Virus record (IMG/VR): IMGVR_UViG_3300035665_000037
Location: 1-61,315 of that record
Length of the DNA stretch: 61,315 nt
DNA from: a virus
Direction: 5' to 3' (one strand)
Shown: positions 6,256-61,315 of the stretch, in pieces
How the letters are laid out: every line of letters begins with the position of its first letter
Position numbering within the stretch: position 1 is the first letter of the stretch
Program-made: the position numbers and the translations under genes
The notes under the pieces: model-generated
The model's input: the letters and a program-made list of their open reading frames with translations, nothing else
The model's database searches: none
Told to the model about the DNA's origin: nothing

Positions 6256-6517
6256 ATCCTTGTTTTGTATCTGTTCTGTTTACTCCGTTTTCAAGCATCT
6301 CGAGTCCTTCTCGCTCTGCCTCTATTCTGTTTAAAATCTCAAAAGCATCGAAGATGGCAAGCTTCTTAGTTGCTGCTGCATTCTTTAACCTGTCAGCCGC
6401 AAGCTCATCATCCGGATCAGGCTTGATAATATCTTCCTTAGCCACCTTGATGAGCTGCTCAACTGCCCGGTATCCTGCAGCAATTATATCGGTCTTAAGT
6501 TCTTTTACATCTTTCAT
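6224..6517 (-). CDS. small helical protein, candidate terminase small subunit
   Basis: This 97-residue protein is almost all helix. A segment RAVEQLIKVAKEDIIKPDPD is followed by an invariant-looking RLKNAAATKKLAIFDAFEIL stretch. Proteins of this size and pattern often sit just before terL in phages of aquatic and gut Bacteroidetes. The position directly upstream of and overlapping terL suggests it is the small subunit that recognises phage DNA and regulates the motor, but no DNA-binding helix-turn-helix is obvious. The neighbouring upstream gene ends at its start with a 4-base overlap. An unrelated packaging accessory remains possible. Confidence 0.5.
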   Translation of the reverse strand: MKDVKELKTDIIAAGYRAVEQLIKVAKEDIIKPDPDDELAADRLKNAAATKKLAIFDAFEILNRIEAEREGLEMLENGVNRTDTKQGFAERRSISGR

Positions 6518-7077
6518 AGCACAATCGTTATTTGATGATCATACATTCTATACAGCTTCTCACCATCTACCTCAAACTCATACTCACTATCAGGCTTGAA
6601 ACAAACCTTGTCGCCCTGACCTACACCTTGTGAAACAAGATATGCGTTAGGGTATACCATCTCTCCCATAAGAGGCTCATGGGTAAATGGCTTTTTGATG
6701 TAGGATTCAGTAGCAGGGATTGGCTTTACAAAGCAGTACCTGTCATAGGTATGCCACTTGCCATCTTGTTTATATAGAAAGAATTGATCGGGATCAATTA
6801 AGAACACGTCATCACGAAAGAAAGAGCGACCGCTTTTCTGCCGGCCTCTCATGTCGTTATAAAACTTGAATACGTTATGATGCACAAGAAGGGTATCACC
6901 TTTCTTAACAGGTCCATCATATTTATAGGGAACCTCTTCCACTATAGCATAGCGGTTAGAGAACTTGTGGTCCTCTTCAGAAGTGTTTATAATTAAGTCG
7001 ATGCCACCTACCTGCTTGGTGTTGGAATACCTTGTTCCTTCTTGTGGCTTTACAATAAAGTTGAATAGAGACTGCAT
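6514..7077 (-). CDS. conserved protein with GroES-like features
   Basis: This 187-residue protein begins with FNFIVKP, then has RYAIVEEVPYKYDGPVKKGD followed by TLLVHHNVFKF and a C-terminal VSQGVGQGDKVCFKPDSEYE segment. The order (N-terminal strand, 'iV.evp', 'Kkgd.llVhh') parallels the beta-barrel of GroES-type co-chaperonins, with an insertion in the middle (about residues 70-130). Proteins like this are found near the packaging genes of crAss-like and related phages. It may be a co-chaperonin-like or virion assembly protein, and could be compared with the clear GroES at 23218-23475. Gene overlaps of 1 and 4 bases place it in the terminase operon. The GroES-like fold is inferred from pattern only. 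Confidence 0.45.
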   Translation of the reverse strand: MQSLFNFIVKPQEGTRYSNTKQVGGIDLIINTSEEDHKFSNRYAIVEEVPYKYDGPVKKGDTLLVHHNVFKFYNDMRGRQKSGRSFFRDDVFLIDPDQFFLYKQDGKWHTYDRYCFVKPIPATESYIKKPFTHEPLMGEMVYPNAYLVSQGVGQGDKVCFKPDSEYEFEVDGEKLYRMYDHQITIVL

Positions 7078-12962: not shown

Positions 12963-15900
12963 TTATACCATTGTGAGTGAACGCCAAGTTCCGTTAGCGT
13001 AAATATACAAACCAATTACCCCATTTGTCTGATAAACTATTAACCCTTCAGGTACAGTTGCTATTGCAGTACGCTGAGCCTGTGTCATACGTGGAGGCAA
13101 GAAGCCCTTTGTAGTGCTATCCATTTGGAATAACGCTGCAGCATTAATAGTTGCTGTACCCAATCCTACTGCTGATCCATTATCATAAAGCAAACTGTCA
13201 CCAATCGCACTTGCTCCGGTAAACTTCGACAAATAATTTGTCGTACCTGTACCGGTAACAGGATTGGTTAACACACTCTGATACTGAGGGATATTTAAGG
13301 TAGCACCCACTAAAGTGGCAGCGCCTGAAGTACCCGTAGTAGTCAGCGTAATAGCGTTCTGTTTATTATTAAAAGTCGTCCAATCGGTAGAGCTCAAATA
13401 TCCATTTGAACTTGCACCTGATTGCGTGATAGCAATTGTCGTTCCAACAAGCGTAATCGGAGCCGTAACTGAAATAGAGCTCTGCTTGTTATTAAATGTA
13501 GTCCAATCCGTTGAGCTTAAATAACCATCCTGTGACCCACTTGACTGAAGGATTCCAACTGTACCTGAGCCTGTGATAGTGCCGCCCGTTAACGGGCCGC
13601 TAAAGGTTATTGAAGTAACAGTTCCTACTGACCAAGTGCGGTTAACACTAAGGTCTTGGCTGAGTCCGTTGATAGTTATCGTTCTTGTATCCGGAACACC
13701 GCCTAAACCACTCAACGTATAGTTAGGTATGTTCAGCGTGTTGCTTACAAAAGTTGAAGAACCGCTATTGCCTGTAGTAGTCAGCGTTATTGTAGCCTGC
13801 TTATTATTGAAAGTGTTCCAATCGGTGCTCGACAAGTATCCATCTGACGAGGTGCCGGACTGCGTAATCCCTATAGTACCTGTACTTGTAATAGTTCCTC
13901 CTGTTATCGGGCCCGAAGTCGCAACGCTTGTAACTGTACCAACAGACCAAGACCTATCTGTACTCAAGTCTTGCGCCAATCCATTGATTGTAATATTACG
14001 AGTTGTTGGAACACCGCCAAGCCCTGCAAGCGTATATTGAGGTACATTAAGAACACCTGTTAAATTGCTGTAAGTAGCAGCTCCGCTTGATCCGGTGGTC
14101 GTTAAGCTAATAGCAGAGCGTGCTCTACTATCTGTAAAATAAAGGTTAGTACCCTCAGAAATATTTGATGTAGTAAGGTTTACTGCGCCGGTAAATCCAT
14201 TTACTGAGGTAACAGACTCTGTATTATCTACTTTTTGCCAAGCAGACCCGTGAAACACAATCCAATCCCCTACCTGCCATCCACTAATACCATCAATAGT
14301 CGTATTACCTGCTACACTTACAATGTAGAAGTACCCATCGGTACCAACACCTGAAGTAATAGTAGGGCTATTCGTTGATGCGTTCCAAGTACCTTGATAC
14401 TGCAACCCACCAATTAAGTCATTTACTTGTCCTTGTAGCTTTCCTAAAGCAGTAAGTATACTGTCAGTAGAAGATATTGTCGTGCCGGTAACAGTAAGAC
14501 CTGTAAGGACTTTACCTGTGACAGCAGAGTTACTGAGCGTGACACTTGCTGCGCCCGGACCACTCGCTGTGGCTTCACCCGTCAGTGAAGTAATATAGTT
14601 ACCCTGAGCTTGGTACTGAGGGATATTTAGCGTATGTGAAGTAAGCGTGGCTGCACCCGAAGTACCTGTAGTTGTCAGAGATGTAATTCGATTATCATAC
14701 GCCTCATCCCATTCAGCTTGAACAGCATTTGTTGGGAGGCTATATCCTGAAGCAAAAGTAAGCGCAAGTGTTCCTGCTCCGGTAACCGGGTTACCGGACA
14801 CAGCAAAACCTGTAGGTACACTCATATCTACAGAAGTCACTGTACCAACACTCCAACTTCTATCTGCACTCAAGTCATAAGCAGTACCGTTAATGGTAAG
14901 TGTTCTTGACTGAGGCGTATAAGCTGTGGTGTCAACTATTAAGGTACCGTTTGAACCTGAAGTTTTAAGAATACCATTGGTAGTGTATCCAATAAGCTGA
15001 ATGCTTAAGTCAGCGTTTAATGACATGGTGTAATTGCCGCCATTGACTTCAATCATTACCTTGCCACCTACATTATAGTTCGCAAGAGTAAGTCTGCTTT
15101 CAGCAGTATTATAATACAAAGCACCACTACCTGCGCCCATATTAGTCAAATAATATGAAGGAGCTGTAGGAGAAGCTGTAAATGTTTTGGCACCACCTAT
15201 TGTTTGAGTGGTAGCATTAATAAATCCTCTTGCTGAAGCTGACGCATCAGGAATATTAAAGGTGTGAACAGTACCTGCACTTACAATATTGAAGTCAGTA
15301 CCTGTTGTTCCGGTAGCAAATGTCTGATTTGAAGACAGTGCAAGACCATTTAATGTCCTTGTAAGAGGAACATATCTAAGATCAAGGTCTACGCTTGCAA
15401 GACCTGTAACGTGGCCAAACGTATCAAGAGATACGTCTTGGATTACAGTTCCCCCTGCATTGTCAACGCTTGTTTGAGATGAAGTATCTGCGTGGCTGAT
15501 AGTGCCTGACGTAGTAATTGTGCCACCATCAAGCCCTGAACCTGCAGTAATTGAAGTAACTGTACCTACGTTCCATGTTCTATTTGCGCTCAGGTCATAC
15601 GTAGTACCATTTATGGTAAGCGTGATAGCCTGATTAGCCGGAGTATATCCAAGAAGCGTAGCAATAGTTGCACTCTTCCAAAGATTTGTTGCAGTGTCAC
15701 GGTAAAGAACGCCATTGTTTATATAAGGAGTTGGGGCGACATCATGGAGCTCCTCGAGCTCATAACCGTTATCCACCTTAACATATATCTTACCATTATT
15801 TGGATGAGCATACTCTACATATCCAATAATTACGGTATGCTGAGGAGCAGCAGGTTTAATATTTGTGATTGCACCCGGTGTAGTTGGACTCAGATAAAGA

Positions 15901-18782
15901 ACATTACCATCAAGCCATGTCTCTCCCTGAAGATTACCTGTAGTATCTACATTGACAATCTGACCAATATTAACAATAAACCCTTCCTGATTGGTTGATA
16001 TGTCTTCACAAACCAATCCAAGAGTAGACGCACTGTTAGGATCATTATTAGCCTGAGCTAAGGCAACGGCAAGTCTTTGCCCCTGCGCACCTGCAACCCT
16101 TACAGCCTGATAAGCTGTTCTTGATAGATTACCACCTGTGCTGTTGCGCACTCTTGCTACAACGCTCTCTCCAATTGGAAGATTATATGTATTTCCTTTT
16201 AGAGAAAGTCTAATTGTTCCCTCAATATTATCCCACCACATAACTCCTGCAGCAGAAGGAATGTTACTGCTTGATAAATTATATCTAACAAAGTCAGTAA
16301 TAAGGCCATACGACCCAAGGTCAACGTCTTGTGTTGCACCTGTATATGGAACATATCCCGTAAGAACAGAACCATAGTCAGGAATATTAAGCACACCTGT
16401 AAGGTTGCTATATGTTGCAGGGCCACTACTACCTAAAGTAGTAAGGCTGATGGCAGAGCGAGCTCTGCTGTCAGTAAAATATAAATTAGTGCCCTCGGTA
16501 ACAAGGGTCGTTGTATAATCGCCCGACTGAGCTATAATTGCCCCTGTCCTTCCGAACACACTTGTCACCGGGGCGGTATCGTAATCAGTCCATGATGCAG
16601 TAATGGTTCCACCATCCTGCTGATTTAATGTTAATGTCTTTGTAGTCGTACCTGTAACTGCAGCAGAAGTAAGACTTCTGTCATAAGCAACGTCCCATTC
16701 TCCTTGACTTGCGTTTGTAGGAAGTGAATACCCTGCAGCAAACGCCACAGCAAGCGTACCACTACCCGTAACAGGGTTACCTGAGATAGTGAACCCTGCA
16801 GGCACACTCATATCTACTGAAGTGACTGTGCCTACGCTCCATGATCTGTCTGCGGACAAGTCGTAGGAGGTGCCGTTAATTGTAAGCTGCCTTGTTGTAG
16901 GAACAGCTCCAATATCTGAAAGCACCTCACTACCTGTCCTATACTTAATAACCCCTGAATCAGACACTAAGAATTTATCTGTGTCAGTGGCTGCGTTTGT
17001 TATAGTCTCAATATAGAGATCTCCCTCTATAGTTAGCTTATGTCCTGTGTCGTTAATGCCATCACCAATAATAGTGTTGCCATTAGCAAATATTTTTGAA
17101 ACCTGTGTAGCACCAATACTCTGAATAACTACTCCATCAGTATAATTATGAACAGTTGACCTTGGTGACCCAAAGTTGTTCATCGTAATAGTGTAAGCAT
17201 ACGCTGTACCATTACTATTTGCAAAAGTTACTACTCCACCTGTAGCAGTATTGTAGTTGAAGGTAAATGTATCTGATGAGTAAGATAGTGGACTATCTGT
17301 AAGCGTAGTCGTTCCACTCCACATTGGTAGGTAATATGCCGTCCCCGTACCCGTAACAGGATTAACAAGCGCATCTTGCTTGTTATTGAAGGTATTCCAA
17401 TCGGTTGAACTCAAGTATCCATTAGAGCTTGCCCCGGATTGCGTAATTCCAATCACTCCTGCCACATAAGTAATAGGAGCAGTAGCACTTAAGTCGTTAA
17501 GTTTATCATTAAACTCGTTCCAATCAGCAGCACTAAGGTAACCATCTGACGTAGGGCCGGCTTGCGTGATACCAATTGTACCCGAACCGGTAATTGTTCC
17601 ACCTGTAAGCGGTCCACTTGTAGCAATGCTCGTTACGGTACCTACATTCCATGTCCTATTCGCTGAAAGATCGTACCCTGTACCGTTAATTGTAAGGGTA
17701 GTAGTATTTAATACGCCATCAGTGATGCCATAACCGGACAATGTAGTGGGCGTTCCTGTAATCTTACTCCAAGCAAGTGAAGTAATCCATGAAGGATTGG
17801 CATAAGACCCATCTGTACGCACATCACCCACTGTCCATGACCTATCTGCACTAAGATCATAGCCTGTTCCGTTGATAGTAAGGGTTCTTGTGGCCGGAGG
17901 AGCACCAACATCGCTATAAGTAAGGACAACTGCCCCAACATACCCATTAACACTTACAACTGCGTCAGTATTATCTACCTTATTCCAAGCCGATCCATTA
18001 AATATAGCCCAATCACCGACTTTCCAATCAGTAATACCGTCCAAATTTGTGTTACCTGCTACGTTTACTACATAGTAGTAGCCCTTTGTACCTACACCAC
18101 TCTGCAAAAACGGGTTATTTGTAGCCGCATTCCACACACCTTGGTAGGTAACGCCGCCAAATAAACCATTTATTTGGTTTTGTACCTTGCCAAACGCCTG
18201 CAAAATGCTATCAGTTGCTACAACAGTACCGCCTGTTACGTTCAATCCACTCAAAACCTTGGCAATTACCGCAGCATTATCAAGTGTAACGGTAGCGTTG
18301 CCCGGTCCTGAAGCTGTTGCTTCACCACTAAGCTGTGTTATGTAGTTTCCCTGCGATTGATACACAGGGATATTTAAAACTTTACCAATATAAGTAGCAG
18401 CTCCACCCGTTCCCGTAGTGGTTAAGCTGTCAATTGTAGGCAGATCCCATGTCCTATCTGCTGACAGGTCATAAGTTGTCCCGTTTATTGTAATTGTTCT
18501 TGCAAATGGAACGTATGATGTTGAATCAAGAGATCCATCAGCCTTGACAAATTGTGATGCAAGACCGCCCGGGACAATAAAAGCAGCGGCTTCAATACTA
18601 AATGCTCCAAGATTTACGTTACCGGTGGCTCCAACATAAGGCACATAGTCTTGCCCGATGAGGTTACCGATCTCACTTATCGTAAAGTTCTTGGTATTAT
18701 TAAGATTCTCTACGTCTGTTCCGATCAACAGATCGTTCAGCGTAGGAGTCGATATTATCGGGTATGTACTTATCTTCGCCAT
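12963..18782 (-). CDS. giant repetitive tail fibre
   Basis: This 1,939-residue protein is probably the main long fibre. The N-terminus (DLLIGTDVENLNNTKNFTIS) is an attachment module shared with 7332-7568. The body carries at least eight copies of a TINGTxYDLSADRxW repeat and five of a DGYLSSTDWNTFNNKQ-type repeat, separated by SVGTVTSV-like linkers and Gly/Thr stretches. The C-terminus includes KGFLPPRMTQAQRTAIA and ends WRSLTMV, a common cap in fibres of Bacteroidetes phages. There is no S74 chaperone here, unlike the next fibre. The gene ends 3 bases before that fibre's start. A TATATTTG string lies just upstream of the ATG (18790-18797) and may be a promoter. Confidence 0.82.
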   Translation of the reverse strand: MAKISTYPIISTPTLNDLLIGTDVENLNNTKNFTISEIGNLIGQDYVPYVGATGNVNLGAFSIEAAAFIVPGGLASQFVKADGSLDSTSYVPFARTITINGTTYDLSADRTWDLPTIDSLTTTGTGGAATYIGKVLNIPVYQSQGNYITQLSGEATASGPGNATVTLDNAAVIAKVLSGLNVTGGTVVATDSILQAFGKVQNQINGLFGGVTYQGVWNAATNNPFLQSGVGTKGYYYVVNVAGNTNLDGITDWKVGDWAIFNGSAWNKVDNTDAVVSVNGYVGAVVLTYSDVGAPPATRTLTINGTGYDLSADRSWTVGDVRTDGSYANPSWITSLAWSKITGTPTTLSGYGITDGVLNTTTLTINGTGYDLSANRTWNVGTVTSIATSGPLTGGTITGSGTIGITQAGPTSDGYLSAADWNEFNDKLNDLSATAPITYVAGVIGITQSGASSNGYLSSTDWNTFNNKQDALVNPVTGTGTAYYLPMWSGTTTLTDSPLSYSSDTFTFNYNTATGGVVTFANSNGTAYAYTITMNNFGSPRSTVHNYTDGVVIQSIGATQVSKIFANGNTIIGDGINDTGHKLTIEGDLYIETITNAATDTDKFLVSDSGVIKYRTGSEVLSDIGAVPTTRQLTINGTSYDLSADRSWSVGTVTSVDMSVPAGFTISGNPVTGSGTLAVAFAAGYSLPTNASQGEWDVAYDRSLTSAAVTGTTTKTLTLNQQDGGTITASWTDYDTAPVTSVFGRTGAIIAQSGDYTTTLVTEGTNLYFTDSRARSAISLTTLGSSGPATYSNLTGVLNIPDYGSVLTGYVPYTGATQDVDLGSYGLITDFVRYNLSSSNIPSAAGVMWWDNIEGTIRLSLKGNTYNLPIGESVVARVRNSTGGNLSRTAYQAVRVAGAQGQRLAVALAQANNDPNSASTLGLVCEDISTNQEGFIVNIGQIVNVDTTGNLQGETWLDGNVLYLSPTTPGAITNIKPAAPQHTVIIGYVEYAHPNNGKIYVKVDNGYELEELHDVAPTPYINNGVLYRDTATNLWKSATIATLLGYTPANQAITLTINGTTYDLSANRTWNVGTVTSITAGSGLDGGTITTSGTISHADTSSQTSVDNAGGTVIQDVSLDTFGHVTGLASVDLDLRYVPLTRTLNGLALSSNQTFATGTTGTDFNIVSAGTVHTFNIPDASASARGFINATTQTIGGAKTFTASPTAPSYYLTNMGAGSGALYYNTAESRLTLANYNVGGKVMIEVNGGNYTMSLNADLSIQLIGYTTNGILKTSGSNGTLIVDTTAYTPQSRTLTINGTAYDLSADRSWSVGTVTSVDMSVPTGFAVSGNPVTGAGTLALTFASGYSLPTNAVQAEWDEAYDNRITSLTTTGTSGAATLTSHTLNIPQYQAQGNYITSLTGEATASGPGAASVTLSNSAVTGKVLTGLTVTGTTISSTDSILTALGKLQGQVNDLIGGLQYQGTWNASTNSPTITSGVGTDGYFYIVSVAGNTTIDGISGWQVGDWIVFHGSAWQKVDNTESVTSVNGFTGAVNLTTSNISEGTNLYFTDSRARSAISLTTTGSSGAATYSNLTGVLNVPQYTLAGLGGVPTTRNITINGLAQDLSTDRSWSVGTVTSVATSGPITGGTITSTGTIGITQSGTSSDGYLSSTDWNTFNNKQATITLTTTGNSGSSTFVSNTLNIPNYTLSGLGGVPDTRTITINGLSQDLSVNRTWSVGTVTSITFSGPLTGGTITGSGTVGILQSSGSQDGYLSSTDWTTFNNKQSSISVTAPITLVGTTIAITQSGASSNGYLSSTDWTTFNNKQNAITLTTTGTSGAATLVGATLNIPQYQSVLTNPVTGTGTTNYLSKFTGASAIGDSLLYDNGSAVGLGTATINAAALFQMDSTTKGFLPPRMTQAQRTAIATVPEGLIVYQTNGVIGLYIYANGTWRSLTMV

Positions 18783-23668: not shown

Positions 23669-23900
23669 AAGTATTTACGAATAATGGGGTTTGCTCGCCA
23701 ACATAGGCTCCAACAATATTAAACTCGTAGTACTCAATCGCCTCATCATGGTCCATTCCCTGATCCATCAGTATCTCAATCACCTTGTCAATGTTATACA
23801 CCACCCTCATGGTCATAGGCTCAATCCCAATGACAGCGTCATCAAACCCATCAGCAATTAACACGTCCTCGTAATCCTCGAGTATCTTACTTAGTTTCAT
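23652..23900 (-). CDS. small acidic protein of unknown function in the groEL operon
   Basis: This 82-residue protein runs from the ATG at 23900 (MKLSKILEDYEDVLIADGFD). It has DDAVIGIEPMTMRVVYNIDK and a helix with DQGMDHDEAIEYYEFNIVGA, ending in PLFVNTYASRD. The DGFDDAVIGI...DxxMDxDEAxEYFEFNI...Y pattern recurs in phage proteins of unknown function. The start overlaps groEL by 14 bases, so the two are probably translationally coupled. I rejected the longer upstream start as it lies in groEL. Confidence 0.7.
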   Translation of the reverse strand: MKLSKILEDYEDVLIADGFDDAVIGIEPMTMRVVYNIDKVIEILMDQGMDHDEAIEYYEFNIVGAYVGEQTPLFVNTYASRD

Positions 23901-25485
23901 AACTTCTTGCCATTGTGATGATCGCATTGGTTGAAAGGATGGTAGTAGCCACACTCACTGCATTCTGTAGTGCTGAGCGTGTCACCTTAAGTGGATCAAT
24001 GACACCCATCTTGATGAGGTCTCCGACCTCCTTAGTCTTCACATTCAGACCGATGCCATCGGAGATGTCAACGGTATAATGGTCCTCGACCTTCAGCCCT
24101 GCGTTTGTCAGTATCTGAGTAAGCGGAGCCTTGAGTGCCGCATCCAAAATTGAAGCAGCGATGTCCTGCTCTTCGGAGGTTACTTCGCCAACGAGATCGT
24201 AGACTTGTACTTCATACAAGGCTTTGCCACCACCGGGAAGGATCCCTTCCTCAAGTGCAGACCTTACCGCACACACCGCATCGTCAACCCTATCATACAA
24301 CTCCTTCTGCTCAAGGTCAGTGTTACCACCTACGTAGATCACACCAATACCTCCCGTTAGAGACGCTATACGTTCTAACAGATGATCTTTGTCAGCCTTC
24401 CTCTTTGCTACCTTATGCGCATCCCAAAGTTGGTTTACTCTCTCCTCGATCTTGGTTTCGTCTATCCTCAAATCAGATTTTAGGATGATGGTCTTATCTT
24501 TCGACACCACCACCTTAGCCGCATGGCCGAGGTCGGTATAACTTATCTGCGATAAGTCATCACCGGTCTTCTCGCTGAAGTATGTCGCTCCGACACTCAC
24601 CGCAAGATCCTGCATCAGCTCGTGCTGCTTGTACCCAAAGCTCGGTGGTTGAACCACGCAAAGCTTCAAGTTGTTCTTCATCACATTAGCCGCAAGCGTA
24701 TTCACCACATTCACGTGGCAGTTCGATACGATCAGAAGCTTCTTACCCTCTTGGATAATTGGTTTCAATACGTTCTCGATCTGCAAAATGTTCCCAATCT
24801 CAATGTCAGCCACAAGTACCATCACGTCCTCAAAAACACACTCGTCCCTACCCTGATCGTTTATAAACAATGGGCTCAAATAACCCCTGTCGATCTTCAA
24901 CCCTTTGGTGGTCTCAGCATAGGTGTCCTGAGTTTGACTGCGCTCCACAGTGACAATGCCACTGCGCCCCACGTCTTTATACACTTCGGCGATGATCCTA
25001 CCGATCTCCCGGTCATTGTTAGCCGAGATAGTAGCCACATCGTTCAGCATGCTGCCCGATACTTTCTTACTGCGCCTGCGCAGCTTATCCACCACCTTGT
25101 TACTTATTTCCACCATATTGCGAAGGACCTCGGTCCTGTTATGGTGTGGCTTAATACCATTCATACCCCCCTCAACCAACGCCTCCGTTAAGACAATAGC
25201 CGTGGTCGTACCATCACCGGCTGATGTAGCCGTACGGTCTGCCGCCTCCTTCATCATCTTAACCGCAAGGTTCTCGACAGGATCAAGTAGGTCAACCGCC
25301 TTGGCAACCGTCACGCCATCTTTGGTGACGGTGATGCCATGCGTATGTTGGGGGGATTCAATAAGTACTGTATTACCGGATGGACCAAGTGTGCTCTTAA
25401 CAGCACTTGAAATCTTCTTTATGCCGGAAATTAATTTAACTCTGCCGACTTCGTCAAAGACCAATTCTTTAGGTGAGTATTCCAT
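23887..25485 (-). CDS. groEL: GroEL chaperonin
   Basis: This 532-residue protein is a full-length group I chaperonin. Key sites are present: STLGPSGNTV (residues 31-40, nucleotide-binding), GDGTTTAIVLTEAL (90-103, with Asp91 at the position of catalytic Asp87 in E. coli), GGIGVIYVGG, RVDDAVCAVRSALEEG (with the Asp equivalent to Asp398) and GILPGGGKALYEV. The apical domain is diverged. The C-terminus ends MARSYETK and lacks the Gly-Gly-Met tail of many bacterial GroELs. It lies 5' of two small genes and groES, the reverse order of host groES-groEL operons. It presumably forms a phage-specific folding chamber. Its own promoter and palindrome lie just upstream. Confidence 0.95.
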   Translation of the reverse strand: MEYSPKELVFDEVGRVKLISGIKKISSAVKSTLGPSGNTVLIESPQHTHGITVTKDGVTVAKAVDLLDPVENLAVKMMKEAADRTATSAGDGTTTAIVLTEALVEGGMNGIKPHHNRTEVLRNMVEISNKVVDKLRRRSKKVSGSMLNDVATISANNDREIGRIIAEVYKDVGRSGIVTVERSQTQDTYAETTKGLKIDRGYLSPLFINDQGRDECVFEDVMVLVADIEIGNILQIENVLKPIIQEGKKLLIVSNCHVNVVNTLAANVMKNNLKLCVVQPPSFGYKQHELMQDLAVSVGATYFSEKTGDDLSQISYTDLGHAAKVVVSKDKTIILKSDLRIDETKIEERVNQLWDAHKVAKRKADKDHLLERIASLTGGIGVIYVGGNTDLEQKELYDRVDDAVCAVRSALEEGILPGGGKALYEVQVYDLVGEVTSEEQDIAASILDAALKAPLTQILTNAGLKVEDHYTVDISDGIGLNVKTKEVGDLIKMGVIDPLKVTRSALQNAVSVATTILSTNAIITMARSYETK

Positions 25486-25523: not shown

Positions 25524-25556
25524 CAAATATAAAACGATTCCTTCTATAAAAACAAG
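25524..25556 (-). promoter_or_regulatory. groEL promoter, Bacteroidetes type
   Basis: On the minus strand a CTTG (25556-25553, one mismatch to TTTG) is followed, after 21 bases, by TATATTTG (25531-25524), matching TTTG-N19-21-TAnnTTTG. It is placed to drive groEL and the downstream leftward genes. The palindrome at 25500-25522 starts one base after the -7 box. Confidence 0.65.
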
Positions 25557-25596: not shown

Positions 25597-25760
25597 CGAC
25601 ATGCTATATGTCGAGTTCTTCTCCCCTATTATATATATATATATTCCTCCTTTTATATAGATTTTTCCCATTAGAAAGTAAAGTTAAAATCGACATAATC
25701 TATCAGTAAATTGAAAATCAAATAGTTAGAAAATAGAAATCGACATAAAAACGACACAGC
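25597..25760. promoter_or_regulatory. A/T-rich CGACAT-repeat block, copy 1 (candidate origin or operator)
   Basis: This non-coding block contains CGACAT at 25597-25602, its inverse ATGTCG at 25608-25613, CGACATAATC at 25691-25700, CGACATAAAA at 25741-25750 and CGACAC at 25752-25757, next to an alternating TA run (25629-25644). The 24 bases 25677-25700 match 34778-34801 at 23 positions, and 25716-25730 match 34816-34830 at 14 of 15 with nearly the same spacing. Such iterons beside an A/T-rich run resemble plasmid or phage origins. A regulator-binding site shared by two operons is the other explanation. Confidence 0.6.
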
Positions 25761-25790
25761 AATGACAGATAATCGGGTATTTAAAAGAGT

Positions 25791-25851: not shown

Positions 25852-26049
25852 CTAATAACGCTTTCCTTCCTTCAAAGACTCACTCAAATCGGACATCTTA
25901 TCTCCACGATAAACAGCTTCAGCCATCATCTGAATCTTCTGTTCACGCTTCAAGTCCTTTTTAATCTGAGCAGCCTGTTGAATACCGGTAACACTATTAG
26001 GACGATTGTTAATAAGCCTACCGTTCCTAACCGTTAAATCGTTGTACAT
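25852..26049 (-). CDS. small helical protein of unknown function
   Basis: This 65-residue protein reads MYNDLTVRNGRLINNRPNSV, then a charged helix (IQQAAQIKKDLKREQKIQMM) and DKMSDLSESLKEGKRY. It stands alone between the groEL promoter region and the GC-rich intergenic region, on the minus strand. Amino-acid usage looks natural, with an amphipathic helix, and a terminator-like inverted repeat follows the stop. No -7 element is evident upstream. It could be a small regulator acting at the neighbouring control regions, but there is no motif to prove it. Confidence 0.5.
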   Translation of the reverse strand: MYNDLTVRNGRLINNRPNSVTGIQQAAQIKKDLKREQKIQMMAEAVYRGDKMSDLSESLKEGKRY

Positions 26050-32264: not shown

Positions 32265-32544
32265 ATCACCGGACGGAATGTATTACATGGACGTATCAAG
32301 TAAGGCGTTCGTTATCTATGACACCAAGATCTTTGATCTGTATGCGGTATGGCAGAAGGAAGGAACGACCTACCGGATACCAATCACAGAGAGATCGGAT
32401 ATTCAGGTGGCCTTCGACTACCAAAAATACGTGTGCATTGAGGTCCCCTACCAATGCCAATGCAATGTGGATAAGTGGGCAGAAGCGGACAAGATACTCC
32501 ATAACGGATACATCTACGTAAGATACTCAGATATTAAACCATAA
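32248..32544 (+). CDS. last gene of the early array, unknown function
   Basis: This 98-residue protein starts MQKFFKSPDGMYYMDVSSKA, with a beta-rich core (FVIYDTKIFDLYAVWQKEGT, YRIPITERSDIQVAFDYQKY) and CQCNVDKWAEADKILHNGYI near the end. It has three Cys, two in CQC. It closes the array before the palindrome and promoter at 32.56-32.64 kb. The family is not recognised. Confidence 0.6.
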   Translation: MQKFFKSPDGMYYMDVSSKAFVIYDTKIFDLYAVWQKEGTTYRIPITERSDIQVAFDYQKYVCIEVPYQCQCNVDKWAEADKILHNGYIYVRYSDIKP

Positions 32545-32582: not shown

Positions 32583-32610
32583 GTATTCATAGGGAAAATG
32601 TGTAAAAAAA

Positions 32611-32665: not shown

Positions 32666-32968
32666 ATGAAAGTTGACATCTTTAATCAGTATGTGGAAAG
32701 AGTTACAGAACTCTTTGGAATAAACAAGGAAAAATTATTCTCTAAAACAAAGGAGAGAGAACTCGTTGACGCAAGATACTTACTCTACTATCTATGCTAC
32801 AAGCGTCCAATGGGATTGAATTACATTCAGAAATACATGGCCGACAATGGCTACGAGATCAAGCATTCTACATTGATCTACGGAATTGGCAATGTTGAGA
32901 AACGTGTCAAGGAAGATGCTGACTATATGCAAATAGTCAAGGATATTCAGAAAGCAGTATTCATTTAA
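32666..32968 (+). CDS. DnaA domain IV-like DNA-binding protein (first copy)
   Basis: This 100-residue protein has VERVTELFGINKEKLFSKTK followed by ERELVDARYLLYYLCYKRPM, LNYIQKYMADNGYEIKHSTL and IYGIGNVEKRV. The order 'ar-yLcy... l..I..y....... kHsTliyG...ve' corresponds to the C-terminal helix-turn-helix domain of DnaA, where the recognition motif is DHTTVLHA; here it is KHSTLIYG. The AAA+ domain is absent. It is the first gene after the strong promoter and could mark or occupy an origin. A second such protein lies at 39136-39663. Confidence 0.7.
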   Translation: MKVDIFNQYVERVTELFGINKEKLFSKTKERELVDARYLLYYLCYKRPMGLNYIQKYMADNGYEIKHSTLIYGIGNVEKRVKEDADYMQIVKDIQKAVFI

Positions 32969-34654: not shown

Positions 34655-34674
34655 GTCCCATAGCTAATCGAATG

Positions 34675-34700
34675 GGGGGTTTCTACCCCCTTTCTTTTTC
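34675..34700 (+). terminator. intrinsic terminator
   Basis: GGGGGT (34675-34680), TTCT loop, ACCCCC (34685-34690), then TTTCTTTTTC. The stem and T-rich tail are a good intrinsic terminator, 20 bases after the mini-SSB stop codon. It separates the recombination genes from the primase-helicase. Confidence 0.75.
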
Positions 34701-34708
34701 TGTCAGCA

Positions 34709-34867
34709 ATGTCGTTTTTATCCTTCCCTATCTCTCTATATATATTTTATATATTATTATTATTCTATAGAATATAGAGTAAAGTTAAAATTGACATAAT
34801 CGACATCGACTTAATAATCAATTAGTTAGACGACATATTTTCGACATAACCTTGACATTTATGACAT
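34709..34867. promoter_or_regulatory. A/T-rich CGACAT-repeat block, copy 2 (candidate origin or operator)
   Basis: This block holds ATGTCG (34709-34714), TGACAT (34792-34797), CGACAT (34801-34806, 34831-34836 and 34842-34847) and TGACAT (34853-34858 and 34862-34867), the last overlapping the primase start, next to a TATATATTTTATATATTATT run (34737-34756). It shares 24 bases with copy 1 at 25677 (23 identical) and a second conserved string (AATCAAxTAGTTAGA) at matching distance. Iterons, A/T-rich DNA and the adjacent primase-helicase gene suggest an origin. A repressor-operator is the alternative. Confidence 0.62.
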
Positions 34868-37275
34868 ACAATATAACAATCTTCCAAAACATCAAGGAGA
34901 CAAGCACTCCCTTCTTCAGGGACGTAAGGGTAATCCTTGATAGGATTAAGGAAGGAGCAACGAAGGAGCTTGTAAAAAAGATCCGCTTAGAGAAGAAGAA
35001 GCCTGAGAGGAACGAACTGAAGAAACAACTCCCGGCTATCTGCTTTAGCGGTACGTTCAATAAGAGGGCCGATACTGCCCTGATTGAGCATAGTGGACTA
35101 ATATGCTTGGACTTTGACGGATACGTCAAACAGAAGGAGCTATTGCAGGATAAAGAAAATCTGAGTAAGAACAAGTATGTATACTCAGTATTCATCTCCC
35201 CTTCAGGCAATGGCCTGAAAGTGTTGGTCAAGATCCCGGCCGATGCCGAGAACCATACCAACTACTTCAATAGCCTTGAAAAGTATTTCAACTCCCCTTA
35301 CTTTGACAAGACTTCCAAGAACCTAAGCAGGGTATGCTACGAGTCTTACGACCCGTTGATCTACGTCAACGAGAACTCCTCGATATGGGATACCATTGAG
35401 GAGCCTGAGTATACGGAGGTGAATAAGCTACGGGACCAAGCTACCATACCCATCACCGATGAGAATAAGATCGTTGAGATCCTTGTCAAGTGGTGGCAGA
35501 AGAAGTACCCGATGACAGAAGGACAACGCAATCAGAACTGCTTTGTCTTGGCAATGGCGTTCAATGACTTCGGGATCAACAAGAGTTTAGCGAGTTACGT
35601 ATTGAACCAATACGCTACTGCCGACTTCCCGATCAAAGAGATTCAGAGGACTATTGACTCTGCTTATCAGAACACGTCTAATTTTGGTACAAAATACTAC
35701 GAGGATGAGGAGAGAGTGAATCAGATCAAGGCAAAGCTAAGACGTGGCGTATCAAAAAAAGAGGTGCGTATCCAACTGCAGGACTCCAACTTGGATACAG
35801 ACACGATAGAAGCGGTGCTTGCGAAGGTCGAGGAGGAGAACGCCAAACAGACCTTTTGGAGCAAGAACGACAAGGGAGTCATAAGGATAATACACATTCA
35901 GTTTAAGCAGTTCCTTGAGGACTCAGGGTTCTATAAGTATTGCCCGGAGGGTGGGAAGAACTATGTATTCGTGAAGGTTACGAACAACCTGATCGACCAT
36001 ACATCAGAGAAAGAAATCAAGGACTTCGTCCTGAACCACCTGCTTGAGCTTGATGACATTCAGGTATACAACTACTTCGCTGACAATACCCGGTTCTTCA
36101 AGGAGGAGTTCTTATCAATGCTATCAACGATTGAGATCTACTTCATTGAGGATACCAAAGATGCAGCGTACTTGTACTACAAAAACTGTGCGGTGCAGAT
36201 AACAAAGGATGAGGTCAAGCCGATCGACTACCTTGATCTTGGAGGATACGTTTGGAAGGACCACGTGATAGATCGTAATCTTACTATGTGCGAGATCACA
36301 AGTAGATGTGATTACAAGCGGTTCATTCGTAACATCTGCGGTGATGATGACGGAAGGGTATCAAGCATGGAGAGTACCATTGGGTTCCTGCTGCATGGGT
36401 ATAAGAACCTATCCTTCTGTCCGGCCGTGATCCTGAATGACGAGGTCATCAGCGACAACCCGGAGGGTGGAACCGGTAAGGGACTATTCATGAATGCTCT
36501 ATCCAAGATGAAGAAGGTGGTAACGATTGACGGCAAGAGCTTCACCTTTGAAAGAAGCTTCGCTTATCAGTTGGTGTCTGCCGACACGCAGATTCTTGTG
36601 TTCGATGACGTCAAGAAACACTTTGACTTCGAGCGACTCTTCAGCGTAGTGACCGAAGGTCTCACGCTCGAGAAGAAGAACAAGGATGCCATCAAGATAC
36701 CATTCAGTAAGAGTCCTAAGATTGCGATCACTACCAACTATGCCATCAAAGGATCGGGCAACTCATTCGCAAGACGTAAGTGGGAGTTGGAGCTACATCA
36801 ATACTACTCGAAAGCGTACACGCCACTCGATGAGTTCGGTAAGTTGATGTTCGGGGATTGGAGCGATGATGATTGGTGCGAGTTCGACAATTACATGATC
36901 GGATGCCTGAAGGGATACCTGAGAACCGGACTTGTGAAGAGTAAGTTTGTCAACCTTAAGATCAGACAACTGAGTGCAGAGACTACGCATGACTTCATTG
37001 AATGGTGCGGACTTGTTGATGGGCAGCCACGCAACACGGCACTTGAGGTAGGAGTAAGACTCTACAAGAATGAATTGTACAACGACTTCATCAGCGAGTA
37101 TCCTGACTATGGACCGAAGGCAAAGATGACTATCAGCAGAACCAAGTTTTACAAGTGGTTAGTTTCATACGGACTATTCAAAGAAGGTATCATCCCGGAG
37201 GAAGGAAGAGATCTCAATGGCCGGTGGATAATTATTCACAGAAAGAAACAGGAAGATGCAGATAGTGGAGCGTAG
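34861..37275 (+). CDS. primase-helicase with BT4734/VirE-like N-terminus
   Basis: This 804-residue protein combines a primase-type N-terminal domain with a helicase. Residues about 35-135 (ICFSGTFNKRADTALIEHSG, LICLDFDGY, VFISPSGNGLKVLVKI) match the BT4734/VirE N-terminal fold, a primase relative. About 195-275 is a helical primase C-terminal region. The ATPase has Walker A EGGTGKG near residue 537 and Walker B QILVFDDV near 577, like SF3/DUF5906 helicases. I set the start at the ATG at 34861; a TTG nine bases earlier is possible. It should open and prime the phage origin. The next gene overlaps by 20 bases. Confidence 0.82.
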   Translation: MTYNITIFQNIKETSTPFFRDVRVILDRIKEGATKELVKKIRLEKKKPERNELKKQLPAICFSGTFNKRADTALIEHSGLICLDFDGYVKQKELLQDKENLSKNKYVYSVFISPSGNGLKVLVKIPADAENHTNYFNSLEKYFNSPYFDKTSKNLSRVCYESYDPLIYVNENSSIWDTIEEPEYTEVNKLRDQATIPITDENKIVEILVKWWQKKYPMTEGQRNQNCFVLAMAFNDFGINKSLASYVLNQYATADFPIKEIQRTIDSAYQNTSNFGTKYYEDEERVNQIKAKLRRGVSKKEVRIQLQDSNLDTDTIEAVLAKVEEENAKQTFWSKNDKGVIRIIHIQFKQFLEDSGFYKYCPEGGKNYVFVKVTNNLIDHTSEKEIKDFVLNHLLELDDIQVYNYFADNTRFFKEEFLSMLSTIEIYFIEDTKDAAYLYYKNCAVQITKDEVKPIDYLDLGGYVWKDHVIDRNLTMCEITSRCDYKRFIRNICGDDDGRVSSMESTIGFLLHGYKNLSFCPAVILNDEVISDNPEGGTGKGLFMNALSKMKKVVTIDGKSFTFERSFAYQLVSADTQILVFDDVKKHFDFERLFSVVTEGLTLEKKNKDAIKIPFSKSPKIAITTNYAIKGSGNSFARRKWELELHQYYSKAYTPLDEFGKLMFGDWSDDDWCEFDNYMIGCLKGYLRTGLVKSKFVNLKIRQLSAETTHDFIEWCGLVDGQPRNTALEVGVRLYKNELYNDFISEYPDYGPKAKMTISRTKFYKWLVSYGLFKEGIIPEEGRDLNGRWIIIHRKKQEDADSGA

Positions 37276-38907: not shown

Positions 38908-39152
38908 CCGAACAACAGATACAGAGTAAATTAATTAAAGAGCTTGAGAAGAAGGGATACTATGTAATCAAGTTGGTGAAGACCAATAAGAATGGCATCC
39001 CGGATCTTATAGCTATCCCTCCGGGATCTGACGTTGAGTTCATCGAGGTTAAGCGTCCGGATGGTAAGTTATCAAAGCTTCAAGAGTACAGAATAAAAGA
39101 GTTAATTAAACACGGAGTGAAAGCAATTATATATTATGGAGACAAAGAGTGA
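38904..39152 (+). CDS. VRR-NUC domain nuclease
   Basis: This 82-residue protein is a stand-alone VRR-NUC nuclease: SKLIKELEKKGYYVIKLVKT, then the catalytic GIPDLIAIPPGSDVEFIEVK (Asp, Glu and Lys of the PD-(D/E)XK core) and RPDGKLSKLQEYRIKELIKH. Stand-alone phage VRR-NUC proteins cut branched structures such as Holliday junctions. It starts at GTG (38904), overlapping the upstream TGA; no ATG is available in frame near this place. It overlaps the next gene by 17 bases. Confidence 0.85.
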   Translation: MTEQQIQSKLIKELEKKGYYVIKLVKTNKNGIPDLIAIPPGSDVEFIEVKRPDGKLSKLQEYRIKELIKHGVKAIIYYGDKE

Positions 39153-39663
39153 TTTTGATTTTGTTAAGCAAGTTGTTGAGATGGTAATGGGATATGGCAT
39201 CTTTGACAACAATAGAAAGCGTAGAGTCGTAGAGACACGCATGATGTTTGGCCTTCTTATGGTTGAACTTAATTATCCATTGACACAGATAGGAGAGTTT
39301 ATGGATAAAGATCATACAACAGTGATACACTATAAACGCACAATGCGTGGGCTACTCGACACCGACAATGAGATGCTAAGACGCTATCTAAAGTGTAAGG
39401 AGATCATCATTTCTGAGAAACAACCCGTAAATTTATTATCTGATGAAGACTTTAAGGTAAGATCAATAAGACTTCAGAATCAGGTTGATGTACTGAGAAT
39501 AGAAAAGCAGTTGCTTCAAGAAGAAATAAGTGTGCTTGAATCTAAGATTGAATTGATGGAAGATAAAAGACTTACTAAGATATTCGAGCTCATTAAAGAC
39601 AATACACCTATTGGTAATGAGCTTATTGTTGAACGCAAAACAAGAAAGATGTTCGATGACTGA
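39136..39663 (+). CDS. DnaA domain IV-like protein with coiled coil (second copy)
   Basis: This 175-residue protein has RRVVETRMMFGLLMVELNYP, then LTQIGEFMDKDHTTVIHYKR, a near-exact DnaA domain IV recognition motif (DHTTVLHA). A second half (about 95-160) is a long charged coiled coil (IRLQNQVDVLRIEKQLLQEE), ending in VERKTRKMFDD. The AAA+ domain is absent. It may bind host DnaA boxes and form multimers through its coiled coil, interfering with the host origin or serving the phage's own. The gene overlaps the VRR-NUC gene by 17 bases. Confidence 0.75.
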   Translation: METKSDFDFVKQVVEMVMGYGIFDNNRKRRVVETRMMFGLLMVELNYPLTQIGEFMDKDHTTVIHYKRTMRGLLDTDNEMLRRYLKCKEIIISEKQPVNLLSDEDFKVRSIRLQNQVDVLRIEKQLLQEEISVLESKIELMEDKRLTKIFELIKDNTPIGNELIVERKTRKMFDD

Positions 39664-60251: not shown

Positions 60252-61315
60252 TTATGAACCGTAACGGAACAACACGAAGTTGTTAGCACCCAAAGTACAA
60301 ACGCAACGCTCAGAAAGGAAGTTAACCTCCATTGCATCGAGATCGCTTGTTTGAGCACCACCGGCAGAACCTGTGATCCAAGTCTTGTAACGGCGGTCTT
60401 CAGTCTCAGAAGCACGGTAGCGAACGTGTAAGAACGGACGCTTAGCGTTCTTGCCAAGGATTTGGTCGTATACAGATGTAGAACCTGCAGGAACCAAAAG
60501 ACCTGTTACAGTACCTGCGGCTTGAGCACCTGTAGGAAGACCACCACGCATGGTAGGATCGTTCAAGTACTTCCAATCAGACTTGTAGAAGTCGTAACCT
60601 CTGCGGAAGCCTGTGAAGCCAAGGTTTAATGCCATGTCTTTGTCGTTGTCGAACAAACCGTAAGATGTACCGTTTGCTCCGTAGCTGTTTTGAGCAGCCA
60701 ACATATCGTCAATGTCAAAGCTGAAGGCACGGTTTACGAAGATTACGTTCTCTTCGATTGCACCTTGCTTGTCAAGACGAGAGATGATGCTGTCAAAGTC
60801 TACAAGGGTAGTTGGGTTACCACCGCCCCATACGTTACCACGATCGTTAACAACGTAGAAGATACCTTCTGAACCTTTGTTACCGTAAAGTGGGTTAAGT
60901 GAAGCGTTAGCAGCACCTGAACCTGACTCAGCAGGAACAGCCTCGATCATTGCAGTCTCAAGGTAGTCCTCAAAACGCAAGCGAGTTTCGTGCTCACTCT
61001 TCAAATACCAAAGGTATCCGGTAGCACCGTTCTCGGTTGTTACTTCTACCCATCCAATCTGAGCCATGTCAGAACCGCTTACAGCGTATTTGTCCTTGAT
61101 GATGATTGGAGAGTTGTCGAAGATCTCATCTTCTGCTTCCAAAGAACCGATCATTCCAACAGTTCCTTTCTTGAACTCAGAACCGTAGATCCATACAGAA
61201 AGAACGGCTGTGCCTGAGAAAGTTTGACCACCGGCTTCGTAGTAAGCAACATCGAAAGTACCTGCAGTGGTGTTCACAGCAGTAACGATACCCTTGTTAG
61301 AAAGACCTGTAGCGT
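60252..61315 (-). CDS. major capsid protein, remainder (starts at 412 across the junction)
   Basis: This is the main part of the 473-residue capsid protein, whose N-terminus is coded at 1-412; bases 61262-61315 repeat 1-54. It includes KTWITGSAGGAQTSDLDAME and a C-terminus LSERCVCTLGANNFVLFRYG. The length, the position after the scaffold and the downstream terminator support a major capsid assignment. An apparent start at 61277 is a GTG that codes for Val inside the complete frame, not a real start. The sequence resembles capsid proteins of crAss-like phages, which are of similar size. Confidence 0.85.
   Translation of the reverse strand, partial: ATGLSNKGIVTAVNTTAGTFDVAYYEAGGQTFSGTAVLSVWIYGSEFKKGTVGMIGSLEAEDEIFDNSPIIIKDKYAVSGSDMAQIGWVEVTTENGATGYLWYLKSEHETRLRFEDYLETAMIEAVPAESGSGAANASLNPLYGNKGSEGIFYVVNDRGNVWGGGNPTTLVDFDSIISRLDKQGAIEENVIFVNRAFSFDIDDMLAAQNSYGANGTSYGLFDNDKDMALNLGFTGFRRGYDFYKSDWKYLNDPTMRGGLPTGAQAAGTVTGLLVPAGSTSVYDQILGKNAKRPFLHVRYRASETEDRRYKTWITGSAGGAQTSDLDAMEVNFLSERCVCTLGANNFVLFRYGS
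61262..61315. repeat. right copy of the 54-base end overlap
   Basis: Identical to 1-54. See the left copy: it closes the genome into a circle of 61,261 bases and restores the capsid gene. Confidence 0.93.

Follow-up and report, generated by a model that had tools for sequence, protein, structure and literature searches.

Why would a phage carry the same short block of repeats twice, some 9 kb apart, and what would bind there? The question is raised by the flavobacterial-type viral contig IMGVR_UViG_3300035665_000037, which was analysed over its whole length of 61,315 bp (the window). The contig ends carry identical 54-bp direct repeats (1-54 = 61262-61315), so that the contig probably represents a complete genome of about 61,261 bp. 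A preliminary description of this DNA had noticed the duplicated CGACAT-repeat blocks and offered two readings, namely candidate iteron origin(s) or an operator bound by one regulator at two operons. From comparative sequence analysis, we consider it probable that the two blocks serve the phage as cis-acting replication sites, forming a twin or two-part iteron origin that is recognised by the phage primase-helicase.

Homology and distribution of the two blocks

Copy 1 (25597-25770) and copy 2 (34691-34867, directly upstream of the primase-helicase gene) are homologous and lie in the same orientation, on the plus strand. The duplication noted previously is borne out by the alignment of the two blocks that had been proposed as a check, which gave a local score of 64, whereas none of 1000 shuffled pairs scored above 38. 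The matches of 23 of 24 and 14 of 15 bases were likewise recovered, as the 24-mers at 25677 and 34778 and the 15-mers at 25716 and 34816 each differ at one base. The window contains 18 CGACAT hexamers, and eight of them fall in the two blocks; over the whole window no enrichment of the hexamer was found (18 observed against 21.5 expected). An nhmmer profile built from the primase-upstream regions of relatives alone, leaving out the window and all copy-1 sequences, matched copy 2 (34692-34870) with 111.8 bits and copy 1 (25608-25770) with 79.0 bits. These are the only strong profile matches in the genome, the next real match reaching 4.6 bits and the best match in 100 locally shuffled genomes 7.9 bits. 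The blocks had also been described as non-coding, which does not wholly hold for copy 2, where the last repeat, TGACAT (34862-34867), overlaps the ATG of the primase-helicase gene (34861).

The pair is conserved. Eighty relatives with the primase-helicase were fetched, and the regions upstream of its gene can be aligned over their full length. When a sequence model was run over whole contigs, the element was matched in 49/49, and nearly all evaluable contigs hold exactly two strong copies on one strand, mostly 8-14 kb apart, with fragments ending close to the primase set aside as unjudgeable and distances across contig ends counted as circular. One copy usually lies to the right of a leftward GroEL gene, as with the orthologues of copy 1, and the other upstream of the primase-helicase gene. 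One relative, G046, has a shorter apparent spacing of about 4.8 kb, and its contig may be incomplete. The cultured Flavobacterium phage Elemovirus elemoE, whose terminase is related and whose primase arrangement is different, was searched and lacks the element. Within the sample, the element thus accompanies this kind of primase-helicase. A search of the literature, limited to open-licence papers, found no description of the element.

Several relatives depart from the usual layout in minor ways. Five of them (G013, G018, G023, G029 and G037) carry a weak, partial and inverted copy of the element directly beside copy 1. The element lies about 1.8 kb away from the primase gene in L242 (3391-3570), and in G068 a match to the element pattern (L406:6298-6334) is found about 5.3 kb upstream of that gene. 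In G057 (L489, L490) the primase-helicase gene is apparently frameshifted, which could be an assembly error, and both element copies are present.

Anatomy of the blocks

Both copies are built in the same order. From left to right come an outer reverse ATGTC(G/A) site, CCCTATATATATA with a T-rich tract, an A-tract, a (C/T)GACAT pair, the sequence AATCA(A/G)nnAGTTA and a further (C/T)GACA group. At the left edge of copy 1 stands an outer inverted pair, CGACAT/ATGTCG (25597-25613), and copy 2 has an outer reverse CGACAT site on the minus strand (34709-34714); in relatives, comparable reverse sites are again found about 106-108 bp to the left of the IHF-like core. Next comes an AT-rich tract, which a nearest-neighbour duplex energy scan marks as a candidate unwinding element in each copy (25624-25667 and 34726-34777). 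The TA-repeat run reported earlier is present and proves to be part of this longer conserved tract.

The plus-strand repeats flank a central site. To its left, copy 1 has CGACAT at 25691 followed by the degenerate unit TCTATCAG (25691-25706), and copy 2 has TGACAT at 34792 and CGACAT at 34801 (34792-34806). The central site itself is AATCAAATAGTTA in copy 1 (25716-25728) and AATCAATTAGTTA in copy 2 (34816-34828), both on the plus strand and both matching the IHF consensus WATCARNNNNTTR. To its right, copy 1 carries CGACAT at 25741, CGACAC at 25752 and TGACAG at 25763, in 11-bp steps (25741-25768), and copy 2 carries CGACAT at 34831 and 34842 and TGACAT at 34853 and 34862 (34831-34867). The CGACAT hexamers pointed out in the preliminary description are thus in place, but further T/CGACA(T/C/G) repeats had gone uncounted. 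Relative to the central site, the repeats fall at about -25, -15, +15, +25, +36, +47 and +57. Over both copies they follow a 10.2-bp period with a vector strength of 0.90, a descriptive value from related sequences and not a probability; with this period, the repeats would face one side of the helix.

The IHF consensus WATCARNNNNTTR is found at the central site in 33/38 copy-1 and 45/63 copy-2 sequences, where shuffled sequences lead one to expect 1.8 each. A search for phage-encoded IHF or HU found none, save one sub-threshold match in one genome, and the site would therefore need a host protein. Further, the weakest 60-bp duplex of the genome lies in copy 2 (window starting at 34733) and the second weakest in copy 1 (25627), and the two weakest 100-bp duplexes by the same nearest-neighbour scan also fall in the two blocks. 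Within the regions fetched from relatives, copy 2 nearly always ranks first or second in duplex weakness, and copy 1 is usually within the first four. The blocks thus bring together features of iteron origins, namely helically phased direct repeats, an adjoining weak AT-rich tract and an adjacent candidate initiator gene.

Direct repeats around an IHF-type site are also reminiscent of recombination sites. The attP site of phage lambda combines arm-type repeats with an IHF site, and the repeats flanking the IHF-type site here resemble attP arms. Nevertheless, it is highly improbable that the blocks are recombination or attachment sites: a tyrosine integrase (PF00589) was found in 0/25 genomes, with the control search positive in 14/14 reference genomes, and recombination between two direct copies would delete the intervening DNA. 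A search of 25.4-35 kb against Rfam found no RNA family, and CGACATNNNNNNTCGACAT, used as a strict query, had no match in the window.

Flanking genes and the primase-helicase

To the left of copy 1 lies the GroEL gene (23887-25485, minus strand, identified by Pfam), and to the right a small conserved gene for 65 aa that is also leftward (25852-26049), with similar proteins at that place in 27 relatives. The relatives examined are arranged similarly: the leftward GroEL gene lies on the left side of copy 1, separated from it in some by a single small gene that is also leftward, and in most the next conserved gene on the other side of copy 1 has this orientation too. The GroEL gene of the window has a promoter-like TAnnTTTG box at 25524-25531, outside copy 1; this sequence is the Bacteroidota -7 motif. 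Such a box lies between the left gene and copy 1 in 33/38 cases, the plus strand of the copy-1 elements carries it in 0/38, and it occurs inside only 3/79 copy-2 elements. As a side observation, the GroEL gene and a gene for a GroES-like protein (6514-7077) are far apart in the window; among relatives, GroEL is found to the left of copy 1 wherever it is within reach.

These neighbours bear on the second of the earlier readings, by which one phage regulator at both blocks would control early units, the GroEL side and the primase operon, through an operator or promoter element. An intrinsic terminator (34674-34700, plus strand), which recurs in relatives, lies immediately ahead of copy 2 and closes the operon upstream, and the primase operon therefore needs a promoter there; copy 2 of the window holds a sigma70-like TTGACA-16-AATAAT match, and its repeats overlap the primase start. 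AT-rich intergenic DNA occurs at promoters too, which counts against an origin. However, copy 1 is a poor fit for such an operator, as it sits among leftward genes, faces away from GroEL and does not include the TAnnTTTG box of the left gene, with no plus-strand box in any copy-1 element. The rarity of the box in copy-2 elements argues in the same direction, and phased repeats around an IHF-type site, together with the weakest duplex of the genome, suit an origin better. An operator at two operons is therefore unlikely as the explanation of both blocks. Because the terminator precedes it, copy 2 probably contains the promoter of the primase as well, and origin function and autoregulation are compatible in that copy. 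The GC skew around the blocks, suggested earlier as a check, follows gene orientation and so does not locate an origin.

If the blocks are replication sites, the proposed initiator is the primase-helicase encoded beside copy 2 (34861-37275, plus strand; Pfam BT4734-like_N, PriCT_1 and DUF5906; PHROG 28855). Its GGTGKG, DD and TTN motifs, read by eye, resemble those of superfamily 3 helicases. AlphaFold2 predicts a C-terminal winged-helix domain (residues 693-804, encoded at 36937-37272) with a pLDDT of 77.6; the full-length model, at pLDDT 41.9, was too poor to use. Against the PDB the domain gave weak matches to RFX DNA-binding domains (Z 6.8 and 5.6) and to the P4 origin-binding domain 1ka8 (Z 5.1, rmsd 3.2, 73 residues).

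Natural variation in the repeats points to this protein. Some phages have (C/T)AACAT repeats in place of (C/T)GACAT, and both copies are of the AACAT type in at least five genomes (G057, G059, G062, G063 and G064); in AACAT-type phages both copies usually change together. The first AACAT clade consists of fragments, so that copy 1 was not found there, and since a scan of viral contigs with the AACAT pattern mixed in unrelated matches, its use was confined to loci next to GroEL or the primase. Among the copy-1 sequences of the main set, 34/38 are GACA-majority and none is AACA-majority; mixed repeat types are seen in L001, G056 and L482-484. Across 86 primase-helicases, with two ties set aside, all 70 from GACAT-type phages have R at residue 788 and all 14 from AACAT-type phages have K. 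This is the only perfect column among 804, a result of an exploratory, after-the-fact scan of those columns that rests on about four events. Parsimony places four changes for repeat type and four for residue 788. Residue 736 agrees with repeat type in 82/84. In the window these residues are R788 (codon 37222-37224) and K736 (codon 37066-37068), the former mapping to the second strand of the predicted wing and the latter also lying in the C-terminal domain. Residues 761 and 764, in the predicted recognition helix, were perfect in the first AACAT clade and failed in independent lineages, and were rejected. The primase-helicase had already been named among the candidate binders, and the covariation of residue 788 with repeat type speaks for that candidacy.

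The other binders named in the preliminary description were two DnaA domain IV-like proteins. Both are encoded on the plus strand, one at 32666-32968 (Pfam PF08299) and one at 39136-39663, the latter keeping the DHTTVIH signature, and either could be a rival or an accessory binder. At least one Bac_DnaA_C protein was found in 25/25 genomes searched, and the reverse complement of the repeat, TTATGTC, begins like a DnaA box. A real origin might then be bound by these two phage proteins or by host DnaA. The earlier proposal thus stands as regards the presence of the proteins, but neither block contains the DnaA box TTWTNCACA, which makes them less likely binders, and the canonical DHTT motif retained in the second protein suggests ordinary DnaA boxes. 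Recognition of the blocks by DnaA-type proteins is thus quite improbable, and an accessory role for the phage-encoded ones is possible. Upstream of the first of the two genes (32666), and no more than 200 bp from it, are two DnaA-box-like sites on the minus strand, TTATCCACA and TTTTACACA (32466-32474 and 32599-32607), which may possibly serve its autoregulation.

Proposed function and known systems

The suggestion of candidate iteron origin(s) is well supported by comparison, since the conserved pair, the weak duplexes, the phasing, the IHF-type site, the joint change of repeat type in both copies and the covariation all agree with it. With the primase-helicase as the initiator, its C-terminal winged helix would bind the repeats of copy 1 and copy 2 alike, host IHF or HU would bend the DNA between the repeat groups, and the adjacent AT-rich tract would melt, whereupon the helicase could load at the melted tract and prime. 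Binding at copy 2, where the last repeats overlap the gene start, may in addition repress the initiator gene. A stricter version, which we put forward only tentatively and think somewhat doubtful, is an obligate two-block origin, in which the BT4734-like primase-helicase recognises the origin and complexes at both blocks must assemble before firing, perhaps pairing across a DNA loop over the 8-14 kb between them.

By analogy, the closest known system in its working is that of phage P4 with alpha, ori and crr. In P4, ori and crr are both required and both bound by alpha. As summarised in PMC4234260, which cites Ziegelin and Lanka 1995 and Yeo et al. 2002, alpha is a multifunctional primase-helicase whose winged-helix domain binds the origin repeats, after which the protein unwinds and primes; the separate element crr, besides ori, is named in PMC9942202. 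Two separated cis elements that share their repeats are likewise present in the phages described here, and the C-terminal winged helix predicted for their primase-helicase, with its weak match to 1ka8, may be a counterpart of the alpha domain that binds origin repeats. However, the alpha primase is of the bacterial TOPRIM type (PMC4234260), whereas the N-terminus here is BT4734-like_N with PriCT_1, and the present system is therefore not filed as a member of the P4 family. Further, each of the two blocks here has its own AT-rich tract and IHF-type site, and the repeat sequence differs. If the obligate two-block version were true, flavobacterial-type phages would widely share a second example of ori/crr logic, unrelated to that of P4. 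The paired blocks also reopen the question of why a P4-type system needs two separate cis elements.

Replication proteins of the pRN1 type, whose primase is archaeo-eukaryotic, have a similar order of primase, superfamily 3 helicase and C-terminal winged helix. For pRN1 and BIP-1, a large stem-loop downstream of the gene has been proposed, without iterons (PMC4234260), whereas the blocks here carry phased iterons, lie upstream of the gene and are duplicated. An iteron solution is thus suggested for winged-helix primase-helicases where a stem-loop was proposed for pRN1-like proteins.

The general layout is also that of iteron plasmids. The origins of pSC101 and R6K combine direct repeats, an AT-rich unwinding region and an IHF site with an adjacent initiator gene, and the phage blocks have direct repeats, an AT-rich region and an IHF-type site with the proposed initiator gene alongside. 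However, the repeat core here is 6 bp, in steps of 9-11 bp, and plasmid iterons are about 20 bp; the proposed initiator is a primase-helicase and not a Rep protein, and there are two distant copies.

For a large group of uncultured phages, these results offer a defined and testable candidate origin and a likely initiator with a candidate specificity residue. Natural variants for comparison are at hand in GACAT versus AACAT repeats and in R versus K at position 788. Elsewhere in the window, the gene for a 1939-aa protein (12963-18782) contains seven copies of a 64-nt repeat, which are 61-73% alike to the reference copy.
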